The position numbers were made by a program, and so were the translations under genes. The notes under the pieces were generated by a model, which saw only the letters and a program-made list of their open reading frames with translations, was not told the DNA's origin and did not search any database. Shown piece by piece: positions 1,800 through 8,186 of a DNA stretch of 64,000 bases (the stretch's first letter is position 1; every line of letters starts with the position of its first letter). Origin of the DNA: Sulfurovum sp. (GTDB lineage: Bacteria; Campylobacterota; Campylobacteria; Campylobacterales; Sulfurovaceae); the NCBI GenBank assembly GCA_027063305.1, contig JAMORY010000008.1, positions 1-64,000 on the forward strand, given 5' to 3'.

Positions 1800-1817
1800 G
1801 GCGTGACAAGTCACGCC
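1800..1817 (-). terminator. Palindrome over the slipin stop codon
   Basis: GGCGTGAC-AA-GTCACGCC is a perfect 8-bp-arm hairpin that contains the slipin stop codon. It has no U-tract, so it may be a Rho-assisted end or mRNA-stabilising hairpin and not a strict intrinsic terminator. Confidence 0.4.
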
Positions 1818-2932
1818 TTGTTCCCCGTAAGGTCGATCATACCGTTCATGACATGCTCCAAACCTCCGTAGACATTGAGTGTGCCTACTTTTTGTACGAC
1901 ATTTTCAAGTGCTTCAAGCTCTTTAAGCCGTGCGAGGGCAGGGTTGTCCTTCATCAGCTTGGCGGTATTGAGCAAAGACCGCATAGCGGCAGTCTCTTCG
2001 CGTCTGGCGATGTTGTGTGCCTCCGCTCTTTTGGTCGCTTCGATGACTTGGTTGAAGATCTCTCGCATTTCACCTGGCAAGATGATATCTTTGATGTGTA
2101 CTGCCTCAACCTTGACTCCTACGCTTTCACATATCTTGGTGAGTTCAGCAAGTACGTCATCACTTAACGTATGCTGCATGGAGAGGAGTGCATCGATCTG
2201 TTTGGCTCCCAAATGCCTGCGCACCGCAAACTGCAGTTGTTTATAAAGGTACGCGTAAGGGTCATCTACAGCCGTCAGGTAGGTCATACCGTCCGTTACC
2301 CTGTAGTGCATGGTCACGTTGCATCTGAGTGTTACTTTATCCGCAGAGAGCAGCTCTTGTCCCGTGATCTCCAGCGCTTTGACACGCGTGTCCACTATTT
2401 GCAGCTTAACGTCATGCAGATCGGTGTAGAAGTAGTGTTTCCCTGCACCGAGTACCTCTACGAAGACTTCATCAAGATAGAAATACGCCTCTTCAGTAGG
2501 GGCGACGATATGTTTTTTGATCCCCCTTGGGGTCGCACTATACATATCGATATATTTCATATGATCTTTGGCTACTTTGTGATCTGCTTTGACATTGACT
2601 TTTTCTACGGTGACATCCAGCTCTTTCCAGTAGAGCTTAAGCTCACCAAGGCTTAACATCTCGGTAAAATTTCCGTCAATGCAGATATAGGCTCTCTCTT
2701 GATCGGCGAGATCGACAACGGTAAAGTACTTCTCTACAAGCTCAGGATAGAGCCTATGTAACGTACGGGCTTTTTCGCCGTCAATACCGTGATCTTTGGT
2801 GTCATACCGCTCTACGCGATAGTTTCTAAAAAGATGAAACATCTTATGGGCTCCGACACCAAGAACGTCGATCAATTTCTCATCTTTGTAGAGCAACGCT
2901 TTTTCATTCTCTTTGACTTTGAGTCTAAACAT
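1811..2932 (-). CDS. Soluble slipin / SPFH (band 7) protein of the RNA-repair island
   Basis: This 373-residue protein has an SPFH core (roughly residues 150-300, with VDTRVKALEITGQELLSADK and the VHIKDIILP segment typical of slipins) and an alpha-helical C-terminus rich in Glu/Ala/Lys (EATKRAEAHNIARREETAAMR). Ordinary slipins begin with a membrane hairpin; here there is none. Instead two related beta-rich repeats precede the core (residues 4-40 and 143-175, both reading ..E.a.lY.DE.l.eVLG.G.H..). SPFH proteins build ring or cage oligomers. The gene is downstream of the tRNA-like RNA and upstream stretch shares its strand, so cotranscription is likely. Slipin homologues have been noted near rtcB in comparative genomics; what the cage does there is unknown. 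RBS AAAGGA precedes the ATG. Confidence 0.85.
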   Translation of the reverse strand: MFRLKVKENEKALLYKDEKLIDVLGVGAHKMFHLFRNYRVERYDTKDHGIDGEKARTLHRLYPELVEKYFTVVDLADQERAYICIDGNFTEMLSLGELKLYWKELDVTVEKVNVKADHKVAKDHMKYIDMYSATPRGIKKHIVAPTEEAYFYLDEVFVEVLGAGKHYFYTDLHDVKLQIVDTRVKALEITGQELLSADKVTLRCNVTMHYRVTDGMTYLTAVDDPYAYLYKQLQFAVRRHLGAKQIDALLSMQHTLSDDVLAELTKICESVGVKVEAVHIKDIILPGEMREIFNQVIEATKRAEAHNIARREETAAMRSLLNTAKLMKDNPALARLKELEALENVVQKVGTLNVYGGLEHVMNGMIDLTGNKA

Positions 2933-2998: not shown

Positions 2999-3019
2999 AT
3001 GATTGTTAACTGCACTACG

Positions 3020-3102
3020 GAGCAGGGTGGAGCATACGGGTCTGTCGGTGCAAGCAGAAGCGCTCTTTGCCGATGTTTCCGTATGCTGCAAGACCCTTGC
3101 TC
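3020..3102 (-). ncRNA. Long interrupted hairpin at the 3' part of the tRNA-like transcript
   Basis: On the reverse strand GAGCA (3102-3098) pairs with TGCTC (3024-3020), GGGT with ACCC, and GCATACGG (3086-3079) with CCGTATGC (3039-3032), enclosing a further TCGG/CCGA stem. This makes one long interrupted helix like the stem of a Y RNA. It is not a tRNA shape and contains no convincing coding sequence. Confidence 0.5.
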
Positions 3103-3149
3103 TGGTAGGTGTAGTCTTTTTATTGTTCAAGATACGCTCTTGAGGGCGT

Positions 3150-3236
3150 TATTGTAAAGTGTCCAAAACACTTTGCCTTACCGCTTGGCTACATACATTC
3201 TTTATGTATGGCGGGATTCGAACCCGCGAATCAATA
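3150..3236 (-). ncRNA. Permuted tRNA-like module B
   Basis: Reading the reverse strand: TATTG, ATTC, a canonical T arm GCGGG-TTCGAAT-CCCGC (3227-3211), acceptor strand CATACAT, loop AAAGA, acceptor strand ATGTATG, TA, a Gln-like D arm GCCAAGCGGTAAGGC (3189-3175), a 6-bp hairpin with loop TTTTGGA, then CAATA, which pairs with the initial TATTG. The acceptor stem is therefore closed by a loop and the molecule opens where the anticodon arm would be. The loop TTTTGGA resembles a tRNA-Gln(UUG) anticodon loop. Confidence 0.65.
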
Positions 3237-3240
3237 GGAT

Positions 3241-3305
3241 GTGATGCTCTAACCGCTAAGCTACATGCCTTTTGGCATGGCAGGAATCGAACCTGCGATA
3301 ATCAC
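3241..3305 (-). ncRNA. Permuted tRNA-like module A
   Basis: Reading the reverse strand: GTGAT, TATC, a canonical T arm GCAGG-TTCGATT-CCTGC (3296-3280), acceptor strand CATGCC, tetraloop AAAA, acceptor strand GGCATG, the usual TA at positions 8-9, a D arm GCTTAGCGGTTAGAGC (3261-3246), and ATCAC, which pairs with the first GTGAT. All tRNA parts except an anticodon loop are present but in circularly permuted order, as in the tRNA-like module of bacterial Y RNAs. Confidence 0.7.
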
Positions 3306-3406
3306 ATGGTGGAATATCACACATATTCTACGAGGTGCATTCTGATACACGCTCGGCATTGCCAAGGCGCAAGTAGGTAGCAGATGAACTACCTTTGCAC
3401 AGTGCT

Positions 3407-3441
3407 ATTATAGGGAGTATTTCGGTCATATTATGTCCGAA
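3407..3441 (-). promoter_or_regulatory. Operator and promoter of the tRNA-like RNA
   Basis: On the reverse strand the imperfect palindrome TCGGACATAATATGACCGAA (3440-3421) is followed after 8 bases by TATAAT (3412-3407). The rtcB promoter has the same palindrome with two or three changes, the same 8-base spacing and the same -10. The palindrome covers the -35 region, so a dimeric regulator bound there would directly affect RNA polymerase. Confidence 0.75.
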
Positions 3442-3454
3442 TGAAATTTGCGCT

Positions 3455-4366
3455 TTAGAGGGCTTCAAGCTTCTTTTTAAGGGTGCGTTTGATCATCTTG
3501 TTGAGGTTTCTTGGAGCGATGATGCGGATCTTAGGCAGCCATTTGATGATGAGCTCTTCGATCTCTCTGGGGTTGGTGATGCGGTAGTGTACCTCAATGT
3601 CACCGTTATCGAAGGTGTGTACCACCTCTTGGGAAGGGAGGTACTTCTTTTTGAGGAAAAATCGTCGGATGTTCACTTCGACACGAAGCCGTACGAGAAC
3701 TTCTTCTTTACCGAACGCCGCCCAAGGGGTCTGGAGGTTTTGAAAAAAGGTGTCGACCTTTTTGTCGATGAAGAAGCACCGTTTTGTGTATTCGACATCC
3801 TCTATCATGGTTACCCTACGATACTCAACATGGTGTTTGGAGCTGTTGATACCCACAAGATAAAAGTTTTCGTTGAGAAAGAGGATCTTGTAAGGCTCGA
3901 AACGGGTTTGAGAGGTGGCGCGTTCGGTACGGTAAGTGAGCTTGATCTCTTTGCGGAACTTGATGGCATGTTCTATCTTTTTGACCACTTCATGGTTTTG
4001 CATATTCTCAAACGGACGCGATTTGAAATCATACACCAGCATCGATTTGTCTATGAGGGCTTGTGTCTGCTCGGAGATGAGACTTTGCTTTTGAGTCACG
4101 CCAAAAAGGTTGACGATGTTTGCAAGTGTCATGAGATCAGTTGCATGCAGCACCTCGTCAAGCAGCACTTTTTTGTACGCCCTGTAACACTCCCCCTCTT
4201 TGGACATAAAGTCGCCGAATAGCTCACGGATCAGCGCAAAGTCACGCCGAACGGTACGGTCGCTCACCCTATACTCATGTGCCAACCGTGTGACACAAAG
4301 CTGTTTGCCGTCATTGAGGCGTTTGAGTATTTCGATGGTGCGGTATAGGCTGGATTTTTGGCTCAT
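3455..4366 (-). CDS. WYL-domain transcription regulator (HTH-WYL-WCX)
   Basis: A 303-residue protein: an N-terminal DeoR-type winged helix (residues 5-60, RLAHEYRVSDRTVRRDFALI recognition region), a WYL domain (about 130-205, with the degenerate core KLTYRTE...RFEPYKILFLNENFYLVGI) and a C-terminal WCX-like extension. WYL regulators such as BrxR, CapW, PafBC and DriD bind palindromic operators as dimers and respond to nucleic-acid ligands or damage signals. The start codon overlaps the stop of the upstream small gene by 4 bases (ATGA), so the two are cotranslated. Lying between the shared operators, it is the obvious candidate for binding them; rtcB operons usually use the sigma54 activator RtcR instead, which is absent here. 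Confidence 0.87.
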   Translation of the reverse strand: MSQKSSLYRTIEILKRLNDGKQLCVTRLAHEYRVSDRTVRRDFALIRELFGDFMSKEGECYRAYKKVLLDEVLHATDLMTLANIVNLFGVTQKQSLISEQTQALIDKSMLVYDFKSRPFENMQNHEVVKKIEHAIKFRKEIKLTYRTERATSQTRFEPYKILFLNENFYLVGINSSKHHVEYRRVTMIEDVEYTKRCFFIDKKVDTFFQNLQTPWAAFGKEEVLVRLRVEVNIRRFFLKKKYLPSQEVVHTFDNGDIEVHYRITNPREIEELIIKWLPKIRIIAPRNLNKMIKRTLKKKLEAL

Positions 4367-4746
4367 TTTGTTTTGCCTATCATCACAAAGTATTCATCTC
4401 TGACATCCTCATCGATGACGACACCTTTGTTCCCGCCATAGAGTCTGTCGTTTTGGTCTTTTCTTGGACCGCTTATCCAGTAGTGTTCTCCGGTATCAAC
4501 ATCGTAATAATTAGCTTTGAACCCCATGCCTTTAAGACTTTGAAATCGTTTGTCTTTGTAGTAGAGACTTTTACCCGATTTTGAAAAGTAGACACGCCCA
4601 ATACGTGCATCTCCTTCAAGACCTCCACCTTTATTTTCAATATACATAATACGCGACTTGAGATTTTTTTTGGAGGGTATGATCCAGCCGTCAGGGGTCT
4701 GTTGTTCCTGTTCGCTTATGGCAGTAGTATTGTTATTTTTATTCAT
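4363..4746 (-). CDS. Small conserved protein upstream of the WYL regulator
   Basis: With the ATG at 4746 (GGGAAG about 7 bases upstream) it has 127 residues; an in-frame TTG at 4764 would add six Lys-rich residues but overlaps the operator. After a polar N-terminus comes a compact conserved-looking unit: YIENKGGGLEGDARIGRVYF, SKSGKSLYYKDKRFQSLKG, FKANYYDVDTGEHYWISGP and VDEDVRDEYF-like end. I recall similar short proteins in many bacteria, sometimes mislabelled as deoxyxylulose-phosphate synthase; they are far too short for that enzyme. No catalytic motif is evident. Overlap with the WYL gene suggests a joint role. Confidence 0.8.
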   Translation of the reverse strand: MNKNNNTTAISEQEQQTPDGWIIPSKKNLKSRIMYIENKGGGLEGDARIGRVYFSKSGKSLYYKDKRFQSLKGMGFKANYYDVDTGEHYWISGPRKDQNDRLYGGNKGVVIDEDVRDEYFVMIGKTK

Positions 4747-4756
4747 CTTTTTCTTC

Positions 4757-4790
4757 CCGGACAAAATATGTCATTGAAATATTGTACCAT
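4757..4790. promoter_or_regulatory. Divergent promoter with third operator copy
   Basis: CCGGACAAAATATGTC (4757-4772) matches the left half of the rtcB operator; the right half is degenerate. On the plus strand TACCAT (4785-4790) can serve the small ORF at 4819 and the gene at 4895. On the minus strand TACAAT (4786-4781) lies 35 bases before the ATG at 4746. Two divergent transcripts could thus share one regulator site, which would autoregulate the WYL gene. Confidence 0.55.
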
Positions 4791-4818
4791 CTTTTCAACA
4801 AAAAACAAGGAGTAGAAC

Positions 4819-4929
4819 ATGACACATACATTCGTAACATGGAACGGACAAACGCAACAGCGAACAAAACAACAAAAGAGAGATAGGAAAAAGGATGAAG
4901 ATCATTTCCAAATTTCAAGACTATTATGA
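4819..4929 (+). CDS. Short ORF overlapping the next gene (36 residues)
   Basis: AAGGAGT lies just before the ATG, and the frame encodes MTHTFVTWNGQTQQRTKQQK followed by a basic stretch and a stop at 4927-4929. It overlaps the start of the 250-residue gene at 4895, so it may be a small protein or a translational coupling leader. Strong RBS and position after a promoter support translation; no homology is recognised. Confidence 0.5.
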   Translation: MTHTFVTWNGQTQQRTKQQKRDRKKDEDHFQISRLL

Positions 4930-5647
4930 CATAGGCATTGCCTATGGGGTAGATGAGAAGCTGAGGTTTAAAAGAGTTAGCAAGGAGATGCCGACAATTG
5001 TACAAGAGCTGCGAAGCATCATCAAGGTGGTTTATCGGAAGCAGTCTCAATACTACAGGATATTATGCAGTTTTAATGTGATGCTTTTTTGCGGCAAGGC
5101 TTATCCTTTGGTTTACATAAGTATAGAGAAGATCAAAAAAGTCAACAAAAAATTCACCTATGAATTGGCAGATGATACTTACTGTTATGATCTGAATGGA
5201 GTGGATGAGTATATATCTGAGCATTATAAACCGCTGGATGAGATCAAAGATGATTACGAGAGACTGGGGTATAGCTGCTGGAACAGAAACACGCTCAAAA
5301 AGTATGTGAAAGAACACTTTACGCAGGATTTTGCACAGTCATTGTCACTATTTGATGTCTATAAAAAACCATACTTTTATTTAGAGTCGATACGTCGGGT
5401 AGATGAAAAAGGATTTGAGCACACAGAGACAAAAACCATTCTTTTGCCGCAACTCAAACAATATAAGTTTGCAAAAACGGTACCGCCGATGCAGGCCTTT
5501 CAGGAGATCAGTATGTATCTGGGAAAATTAGACCTGACAGAAGACAATACGGTGACGATAGATGATAAGTATCTGGCTCTTGGTAAGGGGTTTGATTGCT
5601 ATTCGTTCAAGAAGATGCCTAAGAAAAGAGAAAAGAAGAGGTGTTGA
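4895..5647 (+). CDS. Unknown protein of the RNA-repair island (250 residues)
   Basis: Not assigned to a function. Visible features: N-terminus KIISKFQDYYDIGIAYGVDE, a central FCGKAYPLVYISI strand, a Tyr/Asp-rich middle, and a conserved-looking tail DDKYLALGKGFDCYSFKKMP ending in a very basic KKREKKRC. No signal peptide or membrane segment. The ATG has AGGA about 7 bases upstream (aaaaaggatg region) and overlaps the preceding short ORF. I have the impression of a widespread uncharacterised family with the same opening and closing motifs, but cannot verify it. Its shared promoter site links it to rtcB and the tRNA-like RNA; the basic tail would suit nucleic-acid binding (inference). Confidence 0.8.
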   Translation: MKIISKFQDYYDIGIAYGVDEKLRFKRVSKEMPTIVQELRSIIKVVYRKQSQYYRILCSFNVMLFCGKAYPLVYISIEKIKKVNKKFTYELADDTYCYDLNGVDEYISEHYKPLDEIKDDYERLGYSCWNRNTLKKYVKEHFTQDFAQSLSLFDVYKKPYFYLESIRRVDEKGFEHTETKTILLPQLKQYKFAKTVPPMQAFQEISMYLGKLDLTEDNTVTIDDKYLALGKGFDCYSFKKMPKKREKKRC

Positions 5648-6655
5648 TCACCTTTCTATTGTTTGCCATAGCAAAGATTTTCCGTCTCTTACCCATACTC
5701 CACCACTTGATGAGTTTAAATGTACGCCACACACCCAGTCGTCTATACCATTCTCTTGGATCATATTTATCTCTCCGGAAAGTACTTTCTTTGCATTAGG
5801 CAAGATATCTATTTTGGTCTCTCTCATGGGCAAATTAAATGCATTGGTTTTAATAAGAGGCTTTTTGAGACTTGGTTTTCCAAGATTTTTTAAACGGCTG
5901 AAAAGATAATCATCTCCAACTGTGTCTAAATTATATTTAGCATGGAACTCATAGCCTAAAACGTCACCAATGATTCTTGCACATTTGGGGTGATGTTTTT
6001 GTGCAGATTCCAGTAAAACTTTATCCCAATAGGGCAAACCGGTTTTTATATCAGGATAGCGTAAAAATAAAAACCCTAAAGCTTTTGTCAACAAAAATAA
6101 ATGATTTATGTCGCCATGTAGGTGTTTCAAATACTTTTTCGGAGTAGGTGAAGTTACGGCTTCCCAAGCACCTTTGGCTACAGCTATTTGTTTGTCGGTC
6201 AATGTGTAAGGGGTAGGATGATTTTTTATCTCTTCTGCATGCAGCAGTGCTATTCCCCAAGCTTCTATATCGAAATGTTTTCTCTTGATTGTTTCAAATT
6301 GGTATACTGAAAGCTTTTGTATATCCAGTTCATGGTAAATAATAAGATGTATTATAAAAGCAAGAAGTAGTTGATCCCCCAATCCTGTGCCTATCCATAG
6401 GTTGTAACTATCTGCTGACTTAAAATCATTGAAGTTTGTATAAAAGTCCCTTGCAATTTCATGAAACACTCTTTGCGAATACGGGTCAAGGGTATGCCAA
6501 CTTTTTTCTCTAAATGTTTTCCATGATTTTATGTCAGTATATGTTTTGAGTGCTCCATAGGATAATACGTCATTAAAAATGAGTATTTCCTCTTCCGGTA
6601 TTTCAAATGCTTTTTGAAAAAGAGCAGCTGCAGCTGTTCCGTGTAGTATGTTCAT
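5648..6655 (-). CDS. DUF1835-like protein of unknown function
   Basis: A 335-residue soluble protein. The N-terminus MNILHGTAAAALFQKAFEIP...ILIFNDVLSYGAL follows the DUF1835 pattern (short strand, GD/GT loop, helix, then a strand with D.L..GP-like turn). The middle is helical; the C-terminus KINMIQENGIDDWVCGVHL... has a beta-rich look. The catalytic role of this family is not established. It is convergent with the 250-residue gene (they touch at 5647/5648) and divergent from rtcB. An operator-like site at 6703-6738 is upstream. Codon usage is more A/T-rich than neighbouring genes, which hints at recent acquisition. Confidence 0.7.
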   Translation of the reverse strand: MNILHGTAAAALFQKAFEIPEEEILIFNDVLSYGALKTYTDIKSWKTFREKSWHTLDPYSQRVFHEIARDFYTNFNDFKSADSYNLWIGTGLGDQLLLAFIIHLIIYHELDIQKLSVYQFETIKRKHFDIEAWGIALLHAEEIKNHPTPYTLTDKQIAVAKGAWEAVTSPTPKKYLKHLHGDINHLFLLTKALGFLFLRYPDIKTGLPYWDKVLLESAQKHHPKCARIIGDVLGYEFHAKYNLDTVGDDYLFSRLKNLGKPSLKKPLIKTNAFNLPMRETKIDILPNAKKVLSGEINMIQENGIDDWVCGVHLNSSSGGVWVRDGKSLLWQTIER

Positions 6656-6702
6656 TGTCGACTCTAAATGTTTTTAAACAGTATAGCAAGAAATGAAAGA
6701 TA

Positions 6703-6738
6703 TTTCGAATCAAATATTTCAATGAGATATTGTACCAT
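6703..6738. promoter_or_regulatory. Fourth, degenerate operator-like site
   Basis: The stretch from TCGAATCAAATATTTC to ATATTGTACCAT aligns without gaps to the site at 4757-4790 with the last 12 bases identical. On the minus strand it places TACAAT (6734-6729) about 75 bases upstream of the gene starting at 6655. It lies 50 bases from the rtcB operator. Confidence 0.45.
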
Positions 6739-6787
6739 GTCCCAATAAAATTGAATCTACAGATAAATTGGTATATTGAACATCCTT

Positions 6788-6821
6788 ACGGACAAAATAC
6801 GACCGAAATACCCTCTATAAT
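6788..6821 (+). promoter_or_regulatory. Operator and promoter of rtcB
   Basis: ACGGACAAAATACGACCGAA (6788-6807), then ATACCCTC, then TATAAT (6816-6821). The tRNA-like RNA promoter on the other strand at 3440-3407 has the same layout base for base with few changes, including spacing. This is the strongest evidence that rtcB and that RNA are coregulated. Confidence 0.8.
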
Positions 6822-6851: not shown

Positions 6852-8186
6852 ATGGATCTGCGATCATACGGATTTTTAGAGATCGACCATGAAACGTTCA
6901 AAGCAACGGGTACACCCTACAAAGTCTATGCCGAGTTGCTCGATGAAACTTCGCAGGCACAGTTTGCCGATGTGTTGGAACAACCCTATGTTACTTACGG
7001 GGCGTTGATGCCTGATGCGCATGCGGGTTACACGATGCCTATCGGGGGTGTCTGTGCGACCAAAGATGTAGTCGTGCCGCAGTTTGTCGGTTTTGATATT
7101 GGGTGTGGGATGTGTGCGTACAAAACGGACTTTAGCAAAGAGGAGGTAACGGTATATGCACAAGCGATATATGATGGTATTGTCTCAACCGTACCGCTTG
7201 GCTTTGCTACCCACAAGGATCACCAGTCGTTCAAGTACGATCTGCCGTTGACCGACTTTGCCAAAAAGGTACTGGAGAGTACGGGGCTTAAACAGCTTGG
7301 AACACTTGGTGGTGGGAACCATTTTATCGAAATCGGTTACGGCTTGGATGATAAGGTGTGGATCGTGATCCACTCCGGATCGCGCGGATTTGGGCACAAG
7401 ATAGCATCGCACTACATGGTACAGGCATATTTGCAGGTACATCCGAGTGAAGGAGTGTTGGAGAAGGTGGTGGCAGACTGGGAGGCGCGTAATGTAAAGT
7501 TCAAAGAGGCAAACCCGCAGGGGTATGCAAAGGCACTTCAAAAGTTTACGCTCAAGCAGACGATGGAGATGAACAAACGTATGAAACCCGATAACATCAA
7601 GGGGATCTACGGTTTGCATACCGATACGCTATTAGGGCAGGAGTATGTAAAAGATCAGCATTTTGCTTTGTACTTTGCGCTGGAGAACCGAAAACGGATG
7701 ATCGAAGCGATCCATGCTGTGATGAACAAGACACTTGGCAAACAAAATAAGATCGTGTTTGAGGATGAGATGCGTTTTATCAACCGTAACCATAATCATG
7801 CGGAGTTCGATACCGATAGAGGAGAGTGGATACACCGCAAAGGGGCGACCCATGCCAAAGAGGGAATGATGGGTGTCATCCCCGGCAATATGCGAGACGG
7901 CTCGTTTGTTGTCAAAGGAAAAGGGAATGAGGAGTCGCTCTTTTCATCATCACATGGTGCCGGACGGGTTATGAGCCGTGTCAAAGCCAAAAAGTCCGTA
8001 AGCATGGAGCAGTTCGAACGCTGTATGGAGGGGATCACGGGTACGGTCGATGTCAATACGCTGGATGAATCACCGTTTGCCTATAAAGATATTTTTGAAG
8101 TGATGCGTTTGCAAGAGGATCTGGTGGAGGTGGTAGAACACATCCGTCCGATCATCAATGTCAAAGACAAGCCTAAGCAGCGGTAA
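6852..8186 (+). CDS. rtcB: RNA ligase RtcB
   Basis: RtcB joins RNA 2',3'-cyclic phosphate or 3'-phosphate ends to 5'-OH ends using GTP and Mn2+, and repairs cleaved tRNA and rRNA. The 444-residue protein has all family signatures: MPDAHAGYTMPIGGV (D55, H57), GFDIGCGMC (metal-binding Cys85), GGGNHFIEI, the IHSGSRGFGH loop, NHNHAE, and the SSSHGAGR motif near residue 368 whose His is guanylylated. AGGAG lies 6 bases before the ATG. It has its own regulated promoter. No rtcA cyclase or archease is adjacent. Uma2 follows after 54 bases and may be cotranscribed. Confidence 0.96.
   Translation: MDLRSYGFLEIDHETFKATGTPYKVYAELLDETSQAQFADVLEQPYVTYGALMPDAHAGYTMPIGGVCATKDVVVPQFVGFDIGCGMCAYKTDFSKEEVTVYAQAIYDGIVSTVPLGFATHKDHQSFKYDLPLTDFAKKVLESTGLKQLGTLGGGNHFIEIGYGLDDKVWIVIHSGSRGFGHKIASHYMVQAYLQVHPSEGVLEKVVADWEARNVKFKEANPQGYAKALQKFTLKQTMEMNKRMKPDNIKGIYGLHTDTLLGQEYVKDQHFALYFALENRKRMIEAIHAVMNKTLGKQNKIVFEDEMRFINRNHNHAEFDTDRGEWIHRKGATHAKEGMMGVIPGNMRDGSFVVKGKGNEESLFSSSHGAGRVMSRVKAKKSVSMEQFERCMEGITGTVDVNTLDESPFAYKDIFEVMRLQEDLVEVVEHIRPIINVKDKPKQR

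Follow-up and report, generated by a model that had tools for sequence, protein, structure and literature searches.

The locus analysed here raises the question of why a tRNA-like RNA and the RNA ligase gene rtcB, encoded on opposite strands, should carry nearly the same palindromic block in their promoters, and of which regulator would read it. Both lie in a 64,000-nucleotide stretch of Sulfurovum sp. DNA (the window), together with genes for a WYL-domain regulator and a slipin and an ORF here called orf250. The elements concerned are the following.

1811..2932, minus: slipin/SPFH (Band_7) protein, downstream of the tRNA-like RNA (PF01145, 7e-21)
3005..3400 (ends approximate), minus: tRNA-like RNA, recognised from Rfam, fold and covariation
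3407..3412, minus: -10 box TATAAT of site 1, 10 bp past the 17-bp core operator
3407-3440, minus: whole element of site 1, TCGGACATAATATGACCGAA-N8-TATAAT
3421..3440, minus: operator 1, TCGGACATAATATGACCGAA, promoter of the tRNA-like RNA and slipin
3423-3439, minus: core operator of site 1, 17 bp
3455..4366, minus: WYL regulator with wHTH, helical linker, WYL and WCX (Pfam HTH_DeoR, WYL, WCX)
4363..4764, minus: small ORF ahead of the WYL gene, true start probably the ATG at 4746, no Pfam match
4758..4774, plus: operator 3, CGGACAAAATATGTCAT, with a weaker right half, between the WYL operon and the divergent gene
4781-4786, minus: TACAAT, which could serve the WYL operon as a putative -10 box
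4785..4790, plus: -10 box TACCAT of the divergent promoter, overlapping the preceding TACAAT
4819..4929, plus: short conserved uORF that runs into the start of the 4895-5647 ORF
4895..5647, plus: orf250, related to the gene that ends the rtcB2-prfH-orf250 operon
6788..6807, plus: operator 2, ACGGACAAAATACGACCGAA, rtcB promoter
6788-6821, plus: whole element of site 2, ACGGACAAAATACGACCGAA-N8-TATAAT
6816..6821, plus: -10 box TATAAT of rtcB
6852..8186, plus: rtcB, RNA ligase (PF01139, 1e-85)

A sequence-only reading of the window had reported that the 20-mers before the RNA and before rtcB agree at 17 of 20 positions, and that they stand on opposite strands, each followed by TATAAT after eight bases. 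The sequences, strands and positions are all as claimed. That reading missed a third site, CGGACAAAATATGTCAT-N10-TACCAT, which precedes the 4895-5647 ORF on the plus strand. This site is weaker, has the identical spacing and is oriented divergently from the WYL operon. Three promoters of one design, with an operator, 10 bp and a -10 box, are therefore present in the window. Matches to CGGACANAATANGACCG with at most three mismatches number six in the window versus 1.25 +/- 1.1 in shuffled sequence, and none of 100 shuffles reached six. In the whole 2.03-Mb genome, sites 1 and 2 are the only matches with zero or one mismatch; ten more have two mismatches, among them the third site at 4758-4774 and site 1 read in reverse. 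When N10-TATAAT is included in the pattern, sites 1 and 2 are the sole genome matches at two or fewer mismatches, and the reversed-pattern control gives 0. A palindromic variant, CGAACATAATACGTTCG, is found at 124462-124478 of contig C13 (G000), with no TATAAT at 10 bp.

Comparison with relatives showed that the design is conserved. WYL orthologs were taken from Sulfurovum, Nitratifractor and other Campylobacterales MAGs, and the operator was found 10 bp before the -10 box upstream of rtcB in 14 of 14 loci, upstream of the RNA and slipin in all six loci with intact upstream DNA, and upstream of the rtcB2-prfH operon in 12 of 12, in counts that include some close relatives and are not fully independent. 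It is also found at three orf250 promoters. One apparent RNA-slipin locus without the operator (L062) was discarded, as its contig begins within the RNA. A site orthologous to operator 3, with its -10 box facing rtcB2 or orf250, occurs in 15 loci, and these divergent-promoter sites are probably functional. Seven control starts (Der, Uma2, MscS) had no operator. Chance, or the recent duplication of one promoter, would be the simplest explanation of two matching sites, and the two window promoters do share parts of the 10-bp spacer. Across loci, however, the spacers vary while the operator is kept, and the same architecture recurs at non-homologous genes in many genera. The comparative data refute this explanation, to which we give practically no weight, and the first judgement that chance or a simple duplication is improbable has held.

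The motif also tracks the regulator gene. The full promoter motif occurs in 9 of 78 genomes of the genus (reversed control 0) and in 19 of 398 genomes of the order (control 1), and a WYL relative (E <= 1e-35) in 26 of the 398. Motif and WYL gene are found together in 13 of 398 genomes versus 1.2 expected (P 2.8e-13, shared ancestry ignored), while 6 of the 19 motif-positive genomes have no WYL relative at E 1e-35. In one genome (G103), sites are present and no WYL gene was found, and the contig stops beside the divergent site. Close homologs of the window rtcB, among 100 relatives, are found only in genomes with a WYL ortholog. Targets that are not linked to the regulator retain the site: rtcB and the WYL gene are on separate contigs in G113, as are the slipin and WYL genes in G159. 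As unlinked targets still carry it, the site appears to act in trans. The recognition helix departs from IRRD in two close relatives, being IQRD in L068 (half-site CCGAC) and IYRD in L129/L154 (TTGAC). In these two cases, the joint change of helix and half-site is suggestive of direct reading by the WYL protein. Conservation and co-occurrence thus strongly support a WYL regulon with a shared operator, and we infer that the WYL protein binds this operator directly.

The sequence-only reading had expected copies of the motif to be limited to this regulon. In a motif search of related genomes, nearly all of the close copies for which the surroundings were read stand at rtcB, RNA-slipin and rtcB2-prfH promoters. 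Scattered copies are largely absent, as expected, and one copy at a tRNA-Ser gene and one at an MFS transporter gene extend the set. The former (L060:3115-3258) consists of an operator and TATAAT right before a tRNA-Ser(GCU) gene; reading this gene as a spare tRNA was unsupported, as no second similar copy was found in the MAG. The latter (L150:7732, in G235) is a perfect operator ahead of the transporter gene. Elsewhere, a CCA-adding enzyme gene and an RtcB stand behind an operator (L155:1769-4797), and a CCA-adding-like enzyme, judged by eye, closely follows rtcB in L054 and an rtcB remnant in L057. At L161, L162, L163, L159 and L160, WYL relatives that are more distant (30-36% identity) lie in islands with many TAGACANAATATGNCYA-N10-TANNNT sites. 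The genes near these TAGACANAATATGNCYA variant sites are of defence type (DarT-NADAR, AbiEii-like, a conflict histidine kinase and a PLD nuclease).

The geometry of these promoters is fixed. The block is palindromic (CGGWC-N7-GWCCG), and the spacer between operator and -10 box is 10 bp in 35 of 35 promoters, the next-best spacer reaching 13 of 35 when spacers from 2 to 21 were scanned; some of the rtcB2 sites came from a scan already favouring 10-bp spacing, and most sites from the 17-mer alone. Information content is about 21 bits for the core operator and 4 for the spacer. Taking TATAAT as -12 to -7, the 17-bp operator covers about -39 to -23, over the -35 element, and a -35 hexamer at 17 bp matches 0-2 of 6 consensus positions in all 35 promoters. 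Because TATAAT is perfect at the rtcB and RNA promoters, these probably have some basal activity. The WYL-adjacent sites have a weaker right half (GWCAN versus GWCCR) and weaker -10 boxes, which suggests that the promoters may be graded in strength. A fixed spacing to the -10 box would also be expected if the conserved block were the -35 region of a promoter for an alternative sigma factor. Against this, the block is palindromic, the -10 box is sigma70-like, and the block tracks the WYL gene and changes together with the recognition helix that this gene encodes; we consider an alternative sigma factor very improbable.

The regulator most resembles a known activator. The AlphaFold2 model of the WYL protein (pLDDT 80.6, linker poorly defined) has DriD as its nearest solved structure (Foldseek E 3.7e-16), with PafBC, CapW and BrxR behind. 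DriD also ranks first in VIA-align (Z 15.7 over 191 residues of the C-terminal part, rmsd 3.5) and is the best sequence match in the PDB, though a weak one (E 0.02-0.04). No relative of the WYL protein was found among viral contigs, and NCBIfam has no model for it. In the slot between the divergent promoter and the WYL gene (4363-4764 in the window; L053-L060), unrelated small genes are found from genome to genome, including one with a HEPN/CARF-like match and one with a HEAT-repeat match.

Published complexes of DriD with RNA polymerase showed an activator that straddles a poor -35 at a constant distance from the -10 box, and DriD activates the operon divergent from driD, not driD itself (PMC12340889). 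Together with the structural match, these complexes agree with the earlier proposal that a palindrome over -35 would seat a dimeric regulator in contact with polymerase. Compared to DriD of Caulobacter crescentus, the protein described here has the same domain layout and fold, and the pseudo-palindromic site over a poor -35, the fixed distance to the -10 box and the site in a bidirectional region beside the regulator gene, facing a divergent operon (whose regulation here is predicted), all recur. In contrast, the two proteins share about 18-20% identity, and DriD binds ssDNA and targets DNA-damage genes, whereas the targets here are RNA-repair genes. Activation is favoured because three features of DriD recur, namely the site over a poor -35, the constant -10 distance and the divergent-operon promoter. 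Alternatively, the WYL protein could be a repressor similar to CapW or BrxR, with the operator blocking sigma at -35 until a ligand releases it. The site does overlap -35 beside a good TATAAT, the CapW and BrxR structures also match the model, and WYL proteins that repress defence genes have been described (PMC9122588, PMC9122601). However, a repressor site does not require an exact distance of 10 bp to the -10 box, yet this distance is kept in 35 of 35 promoters; the promoters lack a usable -35; and in structure the activator DriD is closest, followed by PafBC. Repression is therefore unlikely, but it is a serious alternative.

The recognisable predicted targets are related to RNA. The first, rtcB, persists in one relative (L043:11419-11553, G046) as a remnant of the promoter and the last 38 residues. 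The second is the divergent operon, which in relatives encodes an RtcB2 (TIGR03073, 387.7 bits, cut-off 271.8) and a candidate PrfH release factor (TIGR03072, best match 153.4 bits, under the cut-off of 166.65) and often ends in an orf250 homolog; the window locus lacks rtcB2-prfH, and orf250 alone is left. In the leaders of rtcB2 and orf250, the uORF frame has no stops versus 41 and 24 in the other frames (14 loci). The uORF has a Shine-Dalgarno sequence and an ATG 33-36 nt past the start of the -10 box is rich in K, N, Q, T, R and I, and extends over the start codon that follows; it is possibly a coupling or codon-reading leader peptide.

The third target is the tRNA-like RNA, which consists of a 5' hairpin, two permuted tRNA modules, an AAGAG-hairpin and a long 3' hairpin. 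The order within a module is T-arm, acceptor-like hairpin and D-arm, and one to three modules are found per RNA across loci. The best Rfam score is 42.6 bits for YrlA (RF02553), under the 69-bit gathering cut-off, and the tRNA score is 37.8 bits. The RNA folds much better than shuffled sequences (z -6.9), and two-sided changes that keep pairing are found at 30 of 65 consensus pairs in a modest sample of six loci. ARAGORN found no tRNA in the window RNA; a tRNA-His that it called inside the RNA of L153 seems to be an artefact caused by module permutation. The RNA and slipin appear to be transcribed as one unit, because the Shine-Dalgarno sequence of the slipin gene follows immediately on the terminal hairpin of the RNA in L060 and L064. 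Slipin orthologs are found in 4 of 398 genomes, all four with the WYL gene, the RNA and the operator.

Collectively, these results make it probable that the sites are operators of a DriD-like homodimeric WYL activator (3455-4366) that jointly induces RNA-repair targets upon nucleic-acid damage. First, the WYL homodimer would sense a nucleic-acid damage signal. Second, the activated dimer would bind across the -35 position at promoters without a usable -35 hexamer. Third, it would hold sigma70 RNA polymerase at the -10 box exactly 10 bp downstream. A single signal would then induce (1) the tRNA-like RNA and slipin, (2) rtcB and (3) the operon that diverges from the WYL gene, which would ancestrally have been rtcB2-prfH and have been reduced to orf250 at the window locus.

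The signal would probably be broken RNA, such as tRNA fragments, the main alternative being ssDNA as in DriD. If it were ssDNA or DNA damage, RNA repair would form a branch of a DriD-type DNA-damage response; this variant of the activator reading, whose confidence overlaps with that of the reading as a whole, is somewhat doubtful. DriD and PafBC are both activated by ssDNA, and DNA damage leads to tRNA cleavage in Salmonella (PMC7790460). On the other hand, the recognisable core targets are RNA-related (RtcB, RtcB2-PrfH, the tRNA-like RNA, tRNA-Ser and the CCA-adding enzyme), and CGGAC-type sites were not seen at any DNA-repair gene. PafBC was not activated by ssRNA (PMC11804915), so an RNA ligand is not implied by membership of the WYL family. 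We tentatively entertain, at somewhat short of an even chance, that broken tRNA or rRNA is the direct signal of the WYL activator, which would be an independently evolved counterpart of RtcR. The activator's dedicated RNA-repair regulon would comprise RtcB, RtcB2-PrfH and a multi-module tRNA-mimic RNA with a slipin, sometimes with a tRNA gene or CCA-adding enzyme, and the RNA would, without Ro60, act as a decoy, a scaffold or a sensor of damage.

The proposed regulon can be compared to other RNA-repair systems. RtcR does the equivalent job in enterics via tRNA fragments (PMC7790460). The RtcR-run rtcBA and rsr-yrlBA-rtcBA operons of E. coli and Salmonella likewise have an inducible RtcB, a Y-RNA-like tRNA mimic and a nucleic-acid-sensing regulator (here proposed). 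RtcR, however, is a CARF-domain sigma54 activator, whereas here a WYL protein is paired with sigma70-like promoters in a genome in which no RtcR (PF06956; E. coli control positive) and no TROVE/Ro60 protein (PF05731) were found. Bacterial Y RNA such as YrlA shares the permuted order of arms; unlike it, the RNA here has one to three modules, scores below the Rfam cut-off, is joined to a slipin and occurs without Ro60. In Anabaena, one regulator, TrcR, similarly controls rtcB, a slipin and a tRNA array, but it is a ribbon-helix-helix repressor that binds near -10 (PMC10272220). The RtcB2-PrfH rescue operon (PMC9223846) is the divergent partner in relatives, there under a predicted WYL operator. 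The rtc locus of P. aeruginosa also contains a slipin gene, PaFlo8, although its regulator is RtcR (PMC13086221). Most likely, a DriD-like WYL activator replaces RtcR as controller of the RNA-repair regulon.

Each component is known already, whether WYL activator, RtcB regulon, Y-RNA-like tRNA mimic or slipin next to rtc genes. In a literature search with incomplete journal coverage, no report uniting the RNA-repair set under one WYL operator and no paper linking Sulfurovum with RtcB was found. A survey of RNA-repair systems that Burroughs and Aravind published in 2016 may already mention WYL with RtcB. How RNA repair is controlled in bacteria without RtcR is largely open, as is the role of tRNA-like RNAs near rtc genes. 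With one defined operator, both questions become testable, and the members of the repair programme can be listed by sequence. The operator also ties the tRNA-mimic RNA and slipin functionally to this programme, and the WYL protein here may have RNA, not ssDNA, as its ligand.
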